Of a stretch of 64,000 nucleotides of DNA, positions 16,971 to 22,506 are shown piece after piece; position 1 is the first letter of the stretch, and every line of letters begins with the position of its first letter. Origin of the DNA: Alphaproteobacteria bacterium (GTDB taxonomy: Bacteria; Pseudomonadota; Alphaproteobacteria; DSM-16000; Inquilinaceae); NCBI GenBank assembly GCA_028284045.1, contig JANQSN010000005.1, positions 62,001 to 126,000 of the forward strand. The letters are read 5' to 3'. Below the pieces are notes generated by a model, which saw nothing but the letters and a program-made list of their open reading frames with translations, made no database searches and was not told the origin of the DNA. The position numbers were made by a program, and so were the translations under genes.

Positions 16971-17143
16971 GCCCTCCCCCTCGATGGGGGAGGGTTGGGT
17001 GGGGGTGATCCTCGCACGTGGAAAAGGCCGGCGAAGAAACACCCTCTCGAAGGTGCGATCGGAGGGACGCGCACGTCCCGGCATGAGAGGGCAGCTGCGA
17101 CGCCATCACCCCCTCCCGATCCCTCCCCCATCAAGGGGGAGGG
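16971..17143. repeat. MITE-like GC-rich palindromic element, copy A (diverged core)
   Basis: The left arm GCCCTCCCCCTCGATGGGGG, followed by AGGGTTGGGTGGGGGTGAT, is mirrored on the right by ATCACCCCCTCCCGATCCCT and a CCCCC-N-GGGGG hairpin ending at 17143. The interior (GAAGAAACACC, TCGAAGGTGCGATCGG) is a diverged version of the interior of copies B and D. The outer terminal repeats seen in B and D are not recognisable. It lies between the convergent glmS and the YheO-type regulator and may also stop transcription from both sides. Confidence 0.75.
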
Positions 17144-17170
17144 ACTCAGACCGAACCCAGCGGCGCGGCG

Positions 17171-17860
17171 TCATCGGCGAACCTTGTCCAGATCGCTGTA
17201 GACCGTCGCCCGGGAGACGCCGAGCCGTTCGGCCACCAGATTGGCCGATTTGCGGATCGCGAAGATCTGATGGGAGTCGAGGGACACGATGACGCTTTGC
17301 CGGGCCTTTGCGTCCAGGCCGATCAGGGAGCGGCCAAGACGGCGTTCCTCCTGATCCATGATCGTCGAGATCAGTTCCGGCAGATCTTCGGGAAAGGTAT
17401 AGGGCCGCGACTCCTGCGCCGCGCCGGCCAGGCTCTCCAGCGCGTGGAGGGCGTATTTCAGATTGGACACGTCGAGGTTGAAGCAGAAGGAGCCGACGAT
17501 CTCCCCGTCGGCGTTCTTCAGGGCGGCGACCGTAGACTTGATGATCCGGCCGTCGTCGGTTCTCAGCATGCGGTCGGCGATGATCGTCGCCTGCTTGTCG
17601 GACAGAAGCTCCAAAGACAAGGGCGTCACCGGTGCGCCGACATCGCGCCCCGTTACATTGCCCTCATAGGCGACGACCGACTTCTTCAGGTCGCGAAAGT
17701 CGTGCACCACGACCTCGCAGAAGTCGCCGACCGAGGGCTGGATCGCCTTGGCAATCAAGGAGGCCGTGCGGATCGCCGTCTCGGTGGACGCATCCGGTTT
17801 TGCGCGTTTCGCCGGCTGGGGATCGGCCGGCCGAGGATCAAGTCTCTGGGTCTTCGTCAT
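17171..17860 (-). CDS. YheO/DauR-type transcriptional regulator (PAS-like + HTH)
   Basis: A 229-residue DNA-binding regulator. Residues about 35-150 are a YheO-like PAS domain (FCEVVVHDFRDLKKSVVAYEG, GSFCFNLDVS), and residues about 175-229 are the HTH_22-type helix-turn-helix (IRKSANLVAERLGVSRATVY, SDLDKVRR). Relatives include DauR, a repressor of D-arginine use, and TfoS-like proteins; the ligand here is unknown. It is divergent from the amidase and ABC uptake genes. A palindromic motif occurs both in its own promoter and ahead of the binding-protein gene, suggesting it controls both. Confidence 0.85.
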   Translation of the reverse strand: MTKTQRLDPRPADPQPAKRAKPDASTETAIRTASLIAKAIQPSVGDFCEVVVHDFRDLKKSVVAYEGNVTGRDVGAPVTPLSLELLSDKQATIIADRMLRTDDGRIIKSTVAALKNADGEIVGSFCFNLDVSNLKYALHALESLAGAAQESRPYTFPEDLPELISTIMDQEERRLGRSLIGLDAKARQSVIVSLDSHQIFAIRKSANLVAERLGVSRATVYSDLDKVRR

Positions 17861-18088
17861 GGTGCCTTCTGGATATCTGACGCTCTGTCATTGATCTTGA
17901 CAAAAAGTCTAGTCTTGGTTCATCTGGACAAGCTGTACACAGGCTTGACAGTTTTTGTAACCCGTTGACCGGCCGGCACGACGCCGGCCCGCCGGATGGG
18001 ACGCAGATCCCCGCCGCTGCCGCCGCCGCGGTCTGCAGACGCCGCGCATCGGGCGAACGGCCTTCATCCCTGACCCCAGGAAACCGCC
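17861..18088. promoter_or_regulatory. Divergent regulator/amidase promoter with operator candidates
   Basis: The spacer holds TGGACAA-G-CTGTACA at 17925-17939 and a degenerate TTGACAA-A-AAGTCTA at 17897-17911. Both resemble the perfect palindrome TGGACAA-T-TTGTCCA found at 19532 before the binding-protein gene. TTGACA at 17945-17950 could be a -35 element for the amidase; no clear -10 is visible. Confidence 0.5.
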
Positions 18089-19498
18089 ATGATCGACGTC
18101 GATTCGGGCCTTGGCTCGGCTACCAACCTGGCATCCGGCCTGGACCGAGGGTCGTTCAGCGCCGTGGAACTGACAAAGGCGGTCTTCGACACGATCGACC
18201 GCCGCGCCGACCCGGGCGTCTTCATCGCCCTCACCCGCGAGCGTGCCCTGCAGGAGGCGCAGGCGAGCGACGACAGGCGGGTCCGCGGCGCCTGCCTCGG
18301 CGCTTGGGACGGCATCCCGGTGGCGTGGAAGGACCTCTTCGACCTCCAGGGGGTTCCGACCACCGCCGGGTCGGCCGTCTACCGCGACCGGCCGCCGGCG
18401 GCCCGCGACGCCGATGTGGTGGCGGCCTGCGCCGCACAGGGTCTGGTGGCGGTCGGCAAGACGAACCTGTCGGAATTCGCCTATTCCGGCCTCGGGCTGA
18501 ACCCGCATTTCGGCACCCCGCCCAATCCGTTCAGCCCGCCTGGCGACCCAAGGGCGCCCGGCGGCTCCTCCGCCGGGTCGGCCGTCGCGGTCGCCGCGGG
18601 TCTCGTGCCGGCGGCCATCGGCACCGACACCGCCGGATCGGTGCGCGTGCCCGCCAGCTTCTGCGGGATCTGGGGGTTCAAGGCCAGCCAGAACCGCTAC
18701 GCCATGGCGGGCGTCTTCCCGCTGTCGAGCAGCCTCGACTCCCTCGGCGCCTTTGCCAACGGCGCGGCCGATCTGTGCCAGATCGATGCCTTCATGCGCG
18801 GCCGGCGGCACAGCGATATCGACCCGACGGCGATCGCCGACATCCGCATCGTCGTGCCGGACACGGTGGTCTTCGACGACGTGTCCGCCGACATCGTGTC
18901 CTGCTTCGAGACCCTCGTGCAGGCGCTGGCGGAGGCCGGCGTGGCGATCGAGCGGGGCGCGTTCCCGATTTTCGCGGAGACCGATGCGCTGTTCCGCGCG
19001 CATGGCACGCTGACGGTCGCGGAGGCCTACACGCTGCACGAAGCGCTGCTGAACAGCCCCGATGCGGACCGGATGGACCGCCATATCCGCGCGCGCCTGC
19101 AGACGGCGCTGGACTTCACCGTTCAGGACTACATTCGCCTGCAATGGTCGCGCAGTCGCCTGGAAGCGGAAACCCGCACCAGCCTGGGCAACCGGTTTCT
19201 GTTGTTTCCGACGACGCCGATCACCGCGCCCGCCATCGCCCCCCTGGCGAGCGACGAGACCTTCAGACACACCAATCTGCTGGCGCTGCGAAACACGATG
19301 CTCGGCAACTATCTGGCGATGCCGGGCGTCAGCATGCCGATCGGCGTCGATGGGCAAGGCCTGCCGGTCGGCGCCCTGTTGTCGGCGGCGCCCGGCGGCG
19401 ACACGCCGCTCTTGGCCGCTGCCCGGGCCCTGGAGGCGCGCTTGGGACACGCCGTTCGCCCCCCGACGCCCGCGGCCGACACGCGGCTGCGCGCCTGA
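18089..19498 (+). CDS. Amidase (amidase signature family)
   Basis: A 469-residue amidase signature enzyme that hydrolyses an amide bond in an unknown substrate. The Ser-cisSer-Lys triad can be placed as Lys81 (VAWKDLFD), Ser160 (GGSSAGSAVAVAAG) and Ser184 (GTDTAGSVRVPASFCG), with the usual 24-residue spacing between the serines. The C-terminal half is variable. The start ATG has AGGA upstream. It lies ahead of an ABC transporter and opposite a YheO-type regulator, so it may process the imported compound. Related enzymes act on allophanate, aspartyl-tRNA or various amides; GatA is unlikely because no gatBC is present. Confidence 0.88.
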   Translation: MIDVDSGLGSATNLASGLDRGSFSAVELTKAVFDTIDRRADPGVFIALTRERALQEAQASDDRRVRGACLGAWDGIPVAWKDLFDLQGVPTTAGSAVYRDRPPAARDADVVAACAAQGLVAVGKTNLSEFAYSGLGLNPHFGTPPNPFSPPGDPRAPGGSSAGSAVAVAAGLVPAAIGTDTAGSVRVPASFCGIWGFKASQNRYAMAGVFPLSSSLDSLGAFANGAADLCQIDAFMRGRRHSDIDPTAIADIRIVVPDTVVFDDVSADIVSCFETLVQALAEAGVAIERGAFPIFAETDALFRAHGTLTVAEAYTLHEALLNSPDADRMDRHIRARLQTALDFTVQDYIRLQWSRSRLEAETRTSLGNRFLLFPTTPITAPAIAPLASDETFRHTNLLALRNTMLGNYLAMPGVSMPIGVDGQGLPVGALLSAAPGGDTPLLAAARALEARLGHAVRPPTPAADTRLRA

Positions 19499-19805
19499 GC
19501 GCACCGCGACCGGCAAGCCGTGATGCTTTGTTGGACAATTTGTCCATTTTTTCGGCAGAGTCAGCCTCCGAGGTCCGTTTTTCGGCAGATCGGCCCGCGA
19601 TCTTGCCGGTCACCGTCTTGACAAGTTGTCGAAAGCCCGCACTATCAGACAAGCTGTAAAGTCGCTGGACAGATTAGCAGGATCGATCCGGACGACGCAG
19701 CCGATCCGGCGTGCGGCACGGCCCGAAGGGATGATGCCAAACCGGGTGATGACTGAGGTTACAGGAACGAAAACCCCGAAGAACATCGACAGGAGAGGTC
19801 AGACC
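19499..19805. promoter_or_regulatory. Promoter of the ABC uptake operon with three operator-like sites
   Basis: It contains the perfect palindrome TGGACAA-T-TTGTCCA (19532-19546), TTGACAA-G-TTGTCGA (19618-19632) and CAGACAAGCTGTAAA (19646-19660). The second overlaps a TTGACA that could serve as a -35 element, which would fit repression by a dimer bound there. No gene is visible in the region. Confidence 0.6.
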
Positions 19806-20819
19806 ATGATGATGAGAGCTTTGGCAGTCGCCTGCGGCTTGGCCACCGGCCTCGCGGCGGGATCGATCGCCGCCCAGGAGACGCAATCCGTCACCTTCGT
19901 CCAGCCGCACCCGTCGGCGATCAGCTCCTTCCCGATCCATGTCGCCATCGGCGCCGGCTTCTTCGCCGAAGAAGGCCTTGAGGTCCGCGTCGAGACCGTC
20001 GACGGGTCCGGCGCCGCGACCCAGGCCGTCGCCGCCGGCCAGGCGGAGTTCGCGCGGCCCGGCCCCGCCGTGGTGCTGAACGCCCGGGCGCGCGGGGCGG
20101 ATGTGGTGTTCATCTACAATGTTGCCGCGCGCTCCAATTTCGGGGTCGTCGTGCCCGAGGACAGCGACGTCGAGACGCCCGCCGATCTGCAGGGCACGGT
20201 CGTCGGCGTCGCCACCGCCGACGGGGCGGAGGTTGGCTTCGCGCGCAATGTGCTGCAAGGTTCCGGCCTGGCGGAGGATGCGGATTTCGAGTTCATGTCG
20301 GTGGGCGACGGTGGTCCCGCGGCGACCGCCTTCAATCGCGGCGACATCGCTGCCTACACCGCGTCGCTGGCCGACGCGGCGATCCTCAACCTGCGCGGCG
20401 TTCCGGTTCGGGACATCACGCCGGCTGAGTATCAGAAGTTCTTCGGCAACGGGCTGATCACCACCGGCGATCTGATCAGCACCGATCCCGCCCTGGTGGA
20501 AGGGTTCGTTCGGGCCGTCGCCCGCGGTCACGCCTTCGCCATGGACGACGCGAACCGCGAGGCGGCGCTCGGCTACCTGGCCGACGCCAACCCGCAGGAG
20601 AGCGAGGATCCCGCCTTCGCCAGCGCGCTGTTCGATGCGCTGGTGGCTAATGCGACGCCGATGGACGGCTCCGAAGGGCTGGGCTGGCTGCCGCCGGATG
20701 TCTGGGCCGATTGGCAGGACGTGCTGGTGGAGACCGGTGGGCTGGAGGCGCCGCTGGACGACCTGTCGGCGGCCTTCACCAACGACTTCGTCCTGCAAGT
20801 CCAGGACGCGCTGGACTGA
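19806..20819 (+). CDS. ABC transporter substrate-binding protein (NMT1/SsuA type)
   Basis: A 337-residue periplasmic binding protein of the NMT1/THI5/SsuA-like fold. A signal peptide ends after SIAAQ (residue about 24). The mature part shows GAGFFAEEGLEVRVETVDGS, QAVAAGQAEFARPGP and ADLQGTVVGVATADGAEVGF, the order expected for this family. Three consecutive ATG codons open the gene; GAGAGG lies 7 bases before the first. The stop overlaps the start of the ATPase gene (TGATG). The ligand is not predictable; relatives bind sulfonates, pyrimidines, riboflavin or nitrate. Confidence 0.9.
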   Translation: MMMRALAVACGLATGLAAGSIAAQETQSVTFVQPHPSAISSFPIHVAIGAGFFAEEGLEVRVETVDGSGAATQAVAAGQAEFARPGPAVVLNARARGADVVFIYNVAARSNFGVVVPEDSDVETPADLQGTVVGVATADGAEVGFARNVLQGSGLAEDADFEFMSVGDGGPAATAFNRGDIAAYTASLADAAILNLRGVPVRDITPAEYQKFFGNGLITTGDLISTDPALVEGFVRAVARGHAFAMDDANREAALGYLADANPQESEDPAFASALFDALVANATPMDGSEGLGWLPPDVWADWQDVLVETGGLEAPLDDLSAAFTNDFVLQVQDALD

Positions 20820-21628
20820 TGGACGCGACCGCAGCCGTCGCCGCCGTGACACCGAGCGAAGCCGAAACCGTCTACGAGCTGACCGGCGTCAGCAAGACCT
20901 ACGAGCGCAACGCCGTGGTCGCGCTGCAGGACGTCTCGGTCACCTTGCGCAGCGGCAGCTTTTCGTCGGTGATCGGCGCCAGCGGCTGCGGCAAGTCCAC
21001 CCTACTGAAGATCATGGCGGGCCTGATCCCGCCATCGCGAGGCCGCGTCGTCCTGCAAGGCAAGCCCGTGCTCGGGCCGCGCCGGGACATCGGCATGATG
21101 TTCCAGCAGGCGACGCTGTTTCCCTGGCGCACGACGATCGAAAACATCGTCCTGCCCATCGAGATCCGCGACGGCCGCCGGGCGGCCCAAGAGGCCAAGG
21201 CGCGCGGCCGCGAGCTCTTGGATCTGGTCGGCCTGTCCGGCTTCGCCGACGCCTATCCCAGCCAGCTTTCCGGCGGCATGGCGCAGCGCGCGGCGATCTG
21301 CCGGATGCTGATCACCGAACCCGCCGTCTTGCTGCTGGACGAGCCGTTCAGCGCGGTGGACGAGCTGACCCGCGACTTCATGAATATGGAGCTGCAGCGC
21401 ATTTGCCTGGCGCGGCAGGCGACGGCCTTTCTGGTGACCCATTCCATCCCCGAAGCCGTCATCCTGTCCGACACGGTCTACATCATGGCGCCGCGGCCGG
21501 GGCGCGTTGCGGAAGTCGTCCCGATCGATCTGCCCAGGCCACGGACGCTCGACATGATCACCACGCCCTATTTCAGCGACATCGTTCGCCATATCCGCGC
21601 GCGGCTCGACGAAGGGGCCGGGTCGTGA
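20819..21628 (+). CDS. ABC transporter ATP-binding protein (SsuB/TauB type)
   Basis: A 269-residue nucleotide-binding subunit. Walker A is GASGCGKST (about residues 52-60), the Q-loop is MMFQQATLFPWRT, the signature is LSGGMAQRAAIC, Walker B is AVLLLDEPFSAVDE, and the H-loop is FLVTHSIPEAV. The start is coupled to the binding-protein gene and the end to the permease gene. It drives import by the downstream permease. Confidence 0.95.
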   Translation: MDATAAVAAVTPSEAETVYELTGVSKTYERNAVVALQDVSVTLRSGSFSSVIGASGCGKSTLLKIMAGLIPPSRGRVVLQGKPVLGPRRDIGMMFQQATLFPWRTTIENIVLPIEIRDGRRAAQEAKARGRELLDLVGLSGFADAYPSQLSGGMAQRAAICRMLITEPAVLLLDEPFSAVDELTRDFMNMELQRICLARQATAFLVTHSIPEAVILSDTVYIMAPRPGRVAEVVPIDLPRPRTLDMITTPYFSDIVRHIRARLDEGAGS

Positions 21629-22506
21629 GCGCCGTCGACCAGGCACCGCCGGCGCCGAAGCGGCCGGCGCCGGGGCAGCCGATCGCCGGGGACACCGTCT
21701 GGGCGGAGCGCGTCGCCTGGATCGACCGGATCCCGCGATGGCTCGGCATGTCCTTCGTCTTCGCCCTGTTCATCGGTGTCTGGTGGGGGCTGACCGCGAC
21801 CGGGCTGGTCTCGCCCATCATCCTGCCGTCGCCGCTGGAGACGCTGGAGGACCTGATCTTCGTCACCCAGAACCTGGCGACCGGCGGCTATATGGGGCCG
21901 GCGCTGTGGACGACGCTGAAGACGATCTTCTACGGGTACTTGCTGGCGATCCTGATCGGCTTCTCGCTGGGCGTGCTGGTCGGCGAGACGGCGTTCGGCG
22001 AACGCGCGGTGATGCCCTATCTGGTCGGGCTCGACGCCATGCCGAAGGTGGCGTTCGCGCCGCTGTTCGTCGCCTGGCTGGGCTTCGACATCCATTCGAA
22101 GGTGGCGCTGGCGACCTTCATCGCCACCTTCCCCATCGTGGTGGGGACGGCGGCCGGGCTGCACGCGGCGGACGAGAACGCCCGCATGCTGTTCAAGACG
22201 ATGGGCGCGTCGCGCTGGCAGACGCTGTGGAAGATGAAGCTGCCGACCGGATTGCCGCAGATCTTCACCGGGCTGAAGATCGGCGCGGCGGGCGTCATGG
22301 CCGGCGCCATCACCGGGGAGTTCCTCGGCGGCGGTCGAGGCTTCGGCGAGTTGATCCGCCTGGCGGCAACCCAGCTCAACACGCCCCGGGTCTTCTCACT
22401 GATCATCTATCTCAGCGTGATCGGCATTCTGCTCTACACCTTCGTGACCTGGCTGCAGGCGCGCATCGTGTTCTGGCGGAAGGAACAGGTGCTCGGCGGC
22501 GGCTGA
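21625..22506 (+). CDS. ABC transporter permease (SsuC/TauC type)
   Basis: A 293-residue BPD permease with about six membrane helices. The EAA-type cytoplasmic loop reads FKTMGASRWQTLWKMKLPTG. It appears to start at GTG (21625), overlapping the ATPase stop as GTGA; no in-frame ATG is close enough. The proline-rich first 25 residues precede the first helix (WLGMSFVFALFIGVWWGLTA). It is the last gene of the three-gene uptake operon. Confidence 0.93.
   Translation: MSAVDQAPPAPKRPAPGQPIAGDTVWAERVAWIDRIPRWLGMSFVFALFIGVWWGLTATGLVSPIILPSPLETLEDLIFVTQNLATGGYMGPALWTTLKTIFYGYLLAILIGFSLGVLVGETAFGERAVMPYLVGLDAMPKVAFAPLFVAWLGFDIHSKVALATFIATFPIVVGTAAGLHAADENARMLFKTMGASRWQTLWKMKLPTGLPQIFTGLKIGAAGVMAGAITGEFLGGGRGFGELIRLAATQLNTPRVFSLIIYLSVIGILLYTFVTWLQARIVFWRKEQVLGGG

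Follow-up and report, generated by a model that had tools for sequence, protein, structure and literature searches.

The palindromes of form T-N-GAC-N5-GTC-N-A on either side of an amidase gene are, judging from their sequence and distribution, very probably operators of the adjacent PAS_6/HTH_22 regulator. In the window, which is the whole 64,000-nucleotide stretch of DNA analysed, we propose with a probability of about 0.75 that this regulator is autoregulated and ligand-responsive, probably a repressor, and that it would act through paired operators over an amide uptake-and-cleavage regulon. Sites, statistics, recognition-helix link, pairing and conserved gene set were computed, and from these we infer binding, sign, ligand and substrate. 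The regulator gene, on the minus strand, is divergent from the amidase gene, on the plus strand, and is accompanied further on by the binding-protein, ATPase and permease genes (19806-22506). The features are as follows, the palindromes being given without strand and their mismatches being counted against TNGACN5GTCNA:

17171-17860, minus strand: PAS_6 + HTH_22 (YheO-like) transcriptional regulator, 229 residues (Pfam PF08348 1.7e-26, PF13309 1.1e-13)
17877-17891: putative weak operator CTGACGCTCTGTCAT, two mismatches, 20 bp from 17897
17897-17911: putative operator TTGACAAAAAGTCTA, no mismatches
17925-17939: putative operator TGGACAAGCTGTACA, one mismatch
17945-17959: putative weak operator TTGACAGTTTTTGTA, two mismatches, 20 bp after 17925
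18089-19498, plus strand: amidase-signature hydrolase, 469 residues (PF01425 8.8e-67)
19532-19546: putative operator, perfect palindrome TGGACAATTTGTCCA
19618-19632: putative operator TTGACAAGTTGTCGA, no mismatches
19646-19660: putative weak operator CAGACAAGCTGTAAA, two mismatches
19666-19680: putative degenerate partner site TGGACAGATTAGCAG, three mismatches, 20 bp after 19646
19806-20819, plus strand: NMT1/SsuA-type periplasmic substrate-binding protein (PF09084 7.9e-33)
20819-21628, plus strand: ABC transporter ATP-binding protein (PF00005 3.6e-32)
21625-22506, plus strand: ABC transporter permease, TauC/SsuC-like (PF00528 1.9e-27)

Pfam analysis agrees with the initial annotation of a YheO-type regulator, an amidase and an ABC importer, and assigns PAS_6 plus HTH_22, Amidase, NMT1, ABC_tran and BPD_transp_1 domains. 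The regulator belongs to both of its families, with 92.8 bits for PF08348 (PAS_6; curated cut-off 27) and 51.4 bits for PF13309 (HTH_22; curated cut-off 29.6). A sequence search for a solved relative of this protein returned none. Its AlphaFold2 model is confident (pLDDT 86.9) and comprises a PAS domain, then helices, and a terminal helix-turn-helix (residues 205-228), the second helix of which is the predicted recognition helix (residues 217-228, RATVYSDLDKVR). Structural comparison of the model reports a resemblance of the PAS part to many PAS sensors, and matches with VqmA (6ide, 7dwm), a Vibrio/phage receptor of PAS + HTH layout, the alignment with which covers the PAS part only. The HTH of VqmA is LuxR-type. 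Between the regulator gene and a glmS-like gene, positions 16975-17150 carry GC-rich repeats (CCCTCCCCCTCGATGGGGGAGGG / CCCTCCCCCATCAAGGGGGAGGG), probably an intergenic repeat family.

The five sites reported initially, at 17897, 17925, 19532, 19618 and 19646, are all present, and the one at 19532-19546 is indeed a perfect palindrome. The repeat therefore stands, while the TGGACAA-N-TTGTCCA-like consensus first given for it is too strict: T-N-GAC-N5-GTC-N-A, often paired, describes it better, and the 20-bp partners at 17877, 17945 and 19666 had been overlooked. Among the putative operators, 17877, 17945, 19646 and 19666 are weak; the 19646 site resembles TAGACAAAATGTAAA, found upstream of the orthologous binding-protein gene in locus L010. 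The 17877 site lies ~17 bp before the regulator ATG, and the pair 17877/17897 spans 17-50 bp before the regulator start. With up to three mismatches, the strict form TGGACAANTTGTCCA has four matches in the window against 0.70 expected, a number that no shuffle attained, and three of these four are in the regulator-amidase-importer locus. The relaxed TNGACN5GTCNA has five perfect matches in the 64 kb (1404, 17897, 19532, 19618 and 35785), three of which fall in the two intergenic regions singled out by the initial annotation. A direct repeat (TTTTTCGGCAGA, two copies ~29 bp apart) lies at 19549-19590, between the 19532 and 19618 sites.

Across the 4.3 Mb genome, the strict palindrome occurs at 11 places with at most two mismatches, three in the studied locus and eight elsewhere. 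Just one of the latter is near-perfect, inside an epimerase ORF, and most of the remaining seven lie within long ORFs. Tandems spaced by 20 bp (at most three mismatches) number 13, including three in the studied locus, the reversed-pattern control for this search giving 7 matches; the best of them in the whole genome is the pair 17877/17897 (17877-17911). The 19-bp version of the search returned nothing notable at the studied locus, and its AT-rich match on contig 42 lies within an ORF. A regulon extending elsewhere in the genome was considered and rejected, the other near sites and tandems looking like chance and those examined being mostly in long ORFs.

The motif taken from the window locus was then tested upstream of PAS_6/HTH_22 relatives. 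With at most one mismatch, it precedes 26 of 52 non-redundant PAS_6/HTH_22 regulator genes, which gives it rank 1 of 600 permuted palindromes (mean 7.2, sd 3.8, next best 18). At the same loci, the promoters of neighbouring genes contain it in 30 of 180 cases, and the regulator upstream regions are likewise ahead in perfect sites (10/52 vs 4/180) and tandems (16/52 vs 9/180). Leaving aside the window and its Silicimonas ortholog, these regulator counts become 24/50 for the motif, 9/50 for perfect sites and 15/50 for tandems. When three-base dyads were tallied without bias in the upstream regions of 40 relatives, GAC-N5-GTC came first with 12 occurrences against 3.0 expected, although shuffled sequences also yielded raw counts as high as 12 for one dyad or another. 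The motif also follows the recognition helix, as it is found for 25 of 38 regulators of [SGA]RA types and for 1 of 14 others (Fisher p 3e-4, a guide only, the counts running over related sequences). The sole positive among the others, L129, has the helix ISRASAY, itself of RA-type and missed by the search pattern. E. coli, the only one of the control genomes to return an HTH_22 match, encodes YheO, which shares the two-domain family with the studied regulator; however, the relatives of E. coli-YheO type possess a different recognition helix (ISKHTVY) and have zero motif sites upstream. In a relative from another family of the class, a perfect TTGACAATTTGTCTA (L013:6486-6500) stands directly before the regulator gene, which adjoins an aminotransferase gene and an agmatine deiminase-like gene.

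Pairing is a recurrent trait of these promoters. In the 26 motif-positive ones, a second site stands 19 bp away in 8 cases, 20 bp away in 5 and 18 bp away in 2, with ~0.18 expected per spacing, and this spacing close to two helical turns suggests cooperating dimers. A clean paired example is seen in L188 (TATACATTATGTCCAAATATGGACAAAGTATCAA), while L015 harbours a triple 19-bp array, TAGACAATCAATCCA-TATA-TAGACTATATGTCCA-AATA-TGGAATTTCTGTCGA, that reaches the start codon, as would be expected for autorepression.

In the mechanism that we propose, one regulator dimer would bind each T-N-GAC-N5-GTC-N-A palindrome via the recognition helix beginning SRAT, and a second dimer would occupy the weaker site ~20 bp off, roughly two DNA turns away and on much the same face, an arrangement that would make binding cooperative. 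The 17877-17959 cluster would control the regulator's own gene together with the divergent amidase gene, and the 19532-19680 sites would control the ABC importer operon. The PAS domain would respond to a small molecule, probably the amide taken in by the importer or a product, and regulator binding would change once this ligand occupies the PAS pocket, switching on import and amide cleavage together. The sign of this regulation is most likely repression, because in several relatives the sites lie near or on the regulator start codon, and because a characterised relative, the PAS_6 + HTH protein Cj1387c of Campylobacter jejuni, lowers the expression of the adjacent cj1388 (PMC4519771). The same two observations count against an activator or dual regulator using the same operators, the ligand-bound form of which would recruit RNA polymerase and limit its own gene. 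This alternative is rather unlikely, although the sites precede the start codons of the amidase and binding-protein genes by 125-290 bp, which leaves room for activation, and ~20-bp tandem sites are common among activators too. As for the initial claim that one site overlaps a TTGACA promoter element, TTGACA strings do exist in three sites, but a search around the sites found no sigma-70-like promoter pair; with no promoter recognised, the overlap therefore gives no reading of the regulation sign.

The assignment of the sites to the adjacent regulator has to be weighed against the idea that they serve another regulator, their proximity to PAS_6/HTH_22 genes being incidental. Operator binding is predicted here from sequence, and half of the 52 family members, the dauBAR-type locus included, have no site in the stretch of their own promoter that was tested. 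Nevertheless, the higher frequency of the motif in front of family regulators than in front of neighbouring genes, the confinement of the motif to one recognition-helix class and the specificity of the sites for the studied locus within the genome make this idea improbable. The related importers argue in the same direction: the stretches directly before seven related binding-protein genes contain no copy of the motif (at most one mismatch), and annotated related importers have fumarylacetoacetate hydrolase neighbours, some with GntR/FCD-type regulators and others with no regulator alongside, so that the site tracks the regulator rather than the importer. The link between motif and regulator first drawn from the window is thus upheld by its enrichment, its dependence on the recognition helix and its absence at these importers.

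The lack of the motif at orthologous loci would have told against its assignment to the adjacent regulator, and two such five-gene loci were inspected. The first, G327 (L010), is from the same family as the source and has a regulator 67% identical, and the second, from a Silicimonas MAG, has a regulator 62% identical. All five genes are retained at both loci; there, the regulator gene follows the amidase gene, and the importer genes occupy the opposite strand. Degenerate 20-bp pairs occur in both their binding-protein promoters (TTTACATTTTGTCTA with CCGACATACTATCAA; GCGACATATTGTCAA with TTTACATTTTGTGCA) and their amidase promoters (CAGACATTTCATCTG with TTGACACTCTGTCTT; CCGACATTTCATCTA with TTGACACTTTGTATT), these sites being weak, singly not significant and, in number per promoter, mostly within shuffles. 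As the motif persists in this form in both promoters, the check does not refute the assignment. Beside the G327 locus, L010:13406-17985 encodes a cytosine-deaminase-like amidohydrolase and a nucleoside-type ABC importer.

The 19532 palindrome follows the amidase stop at a distance of 34 bp, and a terminator scan shows TTTTTT behind it, so that it might additionally act as a weak terminator hairpin for the amidase gene (fold -6.5 kcal/mol, z -2.5). That it is mainly the intrinsic terminator of this gene, the other sites being chance or, given their TTGACA strings, -35 boxes, is very doubtful, since its stem comprises just 6 bp, of which 3 are G-C, and it has the sequence of the family operator, since perfect sites are also present at 17897 and 19618, positions at which a terminator would not be expected, and since no sigma-70-like promoter pairs were found at the sites.

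Turning to the genes placed under the proposed control, the amidase possesses a complete Lys/cis-Ser/Ser triad (K81, S160 and S184), carried by the motifs WKD at 80, GGSSAGS at 158 and TAGSVRVPA at 181 (PF01425, 226.5 bits). Its closest solved protein is biuret hydrolase (3.5e-46), and its nearest subfamily model is the generic PRK06102 amidase (544 of 559 bits). Assignments as AtzE (227 of 426 bits) or as allophanate hydrolase (183 of 511 bits) were rejected, both being below the subfamily cut-off. The PF09084 binding protein, the ABC ATPase and the BPD permease, encoded in one operon, form an NMT1/SsuA-type ABC importer. The nearest solved proteins of the binding protein are aminopyrimidine and sulfonate binders of low similarity, including the formyl-aminopyrimidine binding protein 3ix1 (3.5e-10). 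Neither an aliphatic sulfonate type (SsuA, 61.7 of 163.5 bits) nor a taurine type (TauC, 105 of 342 bits) reaches its NCBIfam cut-off, and all TauC/SsuC model matches of the permease are likewise under cut-off. For the substrate, our guess is a nitrogen source of amide or ureide type; the importer relatives adjoin fumarylacetoacetate hydrolase and not amidase genes, and provide no firm substrate. Among them, L042, L043, L044 and L045, on roseobacter and Roseomonas plasmids, adjoin fumarylacetoacetate hydrolase genes, some of them also with GntR/FCD regulator or Ldh-family oxidoreductase genes, neighbourhoods that give a hint of a different substrate route.

There is nothing unusual in a local regulator that acts through palindromic operators on an operon for uptake and cleavage. 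The repressor DauR shares with the studied regulator the PF08348 + PF13309 make-up and an adjacent catabolic operon, whereas the substrate genes differ. In Pseudomonas, a protein of this make-up is annotated as controlling the adjacent dauBAR operon of D-arginine catabolism (PMC7789669). A DauR-like arginine regulon was rejected for the studied locus, no DauA/DauB-type genes lying between 15500 and 24500 of the window. In the dauBAR-type locus L080, the regulator has the helix MGRATVY and comes last in the operon, and T-N-GAC-N5-GTC-N-A is absent from the examined upstream region, including that of the operon. Cj1387c differs from the studied regulator in its association with a RidA-type (endoribonuclease L-PSP) gene and with a flagellar phenotype, and no binding site for it was found in the text of the report (PMC4519771).

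In the open-access literature searched, we found no published operator for the PAS_6/HTH_22 family, and the present one appears to be new. It seems that the motif serves much of this family as a binding code, because the same site, often in ~20-bp pairs, precedes related regulator genes in many bacteria. We consider it slightly better than an even bet that, for the [SGA]RA[ST] subclass of PAS_6/HTH_22 regulators in Proteobacteria, Actinobacteria and Chloroflexota, the tandem (18-20 bp) T-N-GAC-N5-GTC-N-A serves as an operator code not described before. Should this be true, cooperative dimer pairs would be the working unit, and the regulons of this mostly orphan family would become predictable from sequence. 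These regulators are widespread and next to nothing has been published on their binding targets; if they share an operator whose sites pair at a set distance and depend on a few recognition-helix residues, these targets could be read from genome sequence. At the studied locus, the operator predicts that one sensor coordinates the uptake and cleavage of an amide.

The same genome encodes a paralogous PAS_6/HTH_22 regulator (L011:6191-6901; G000:C37:50199-50789). The stretch just upstream of its gene contains a one-mismatch GC-rich match and no convincing operator. This gene ends an operon with agmatinase-like, desuccinylase-like and aminotransferase genes and an amino-acid ABC importer, which recalls the link between DauR and arginine.
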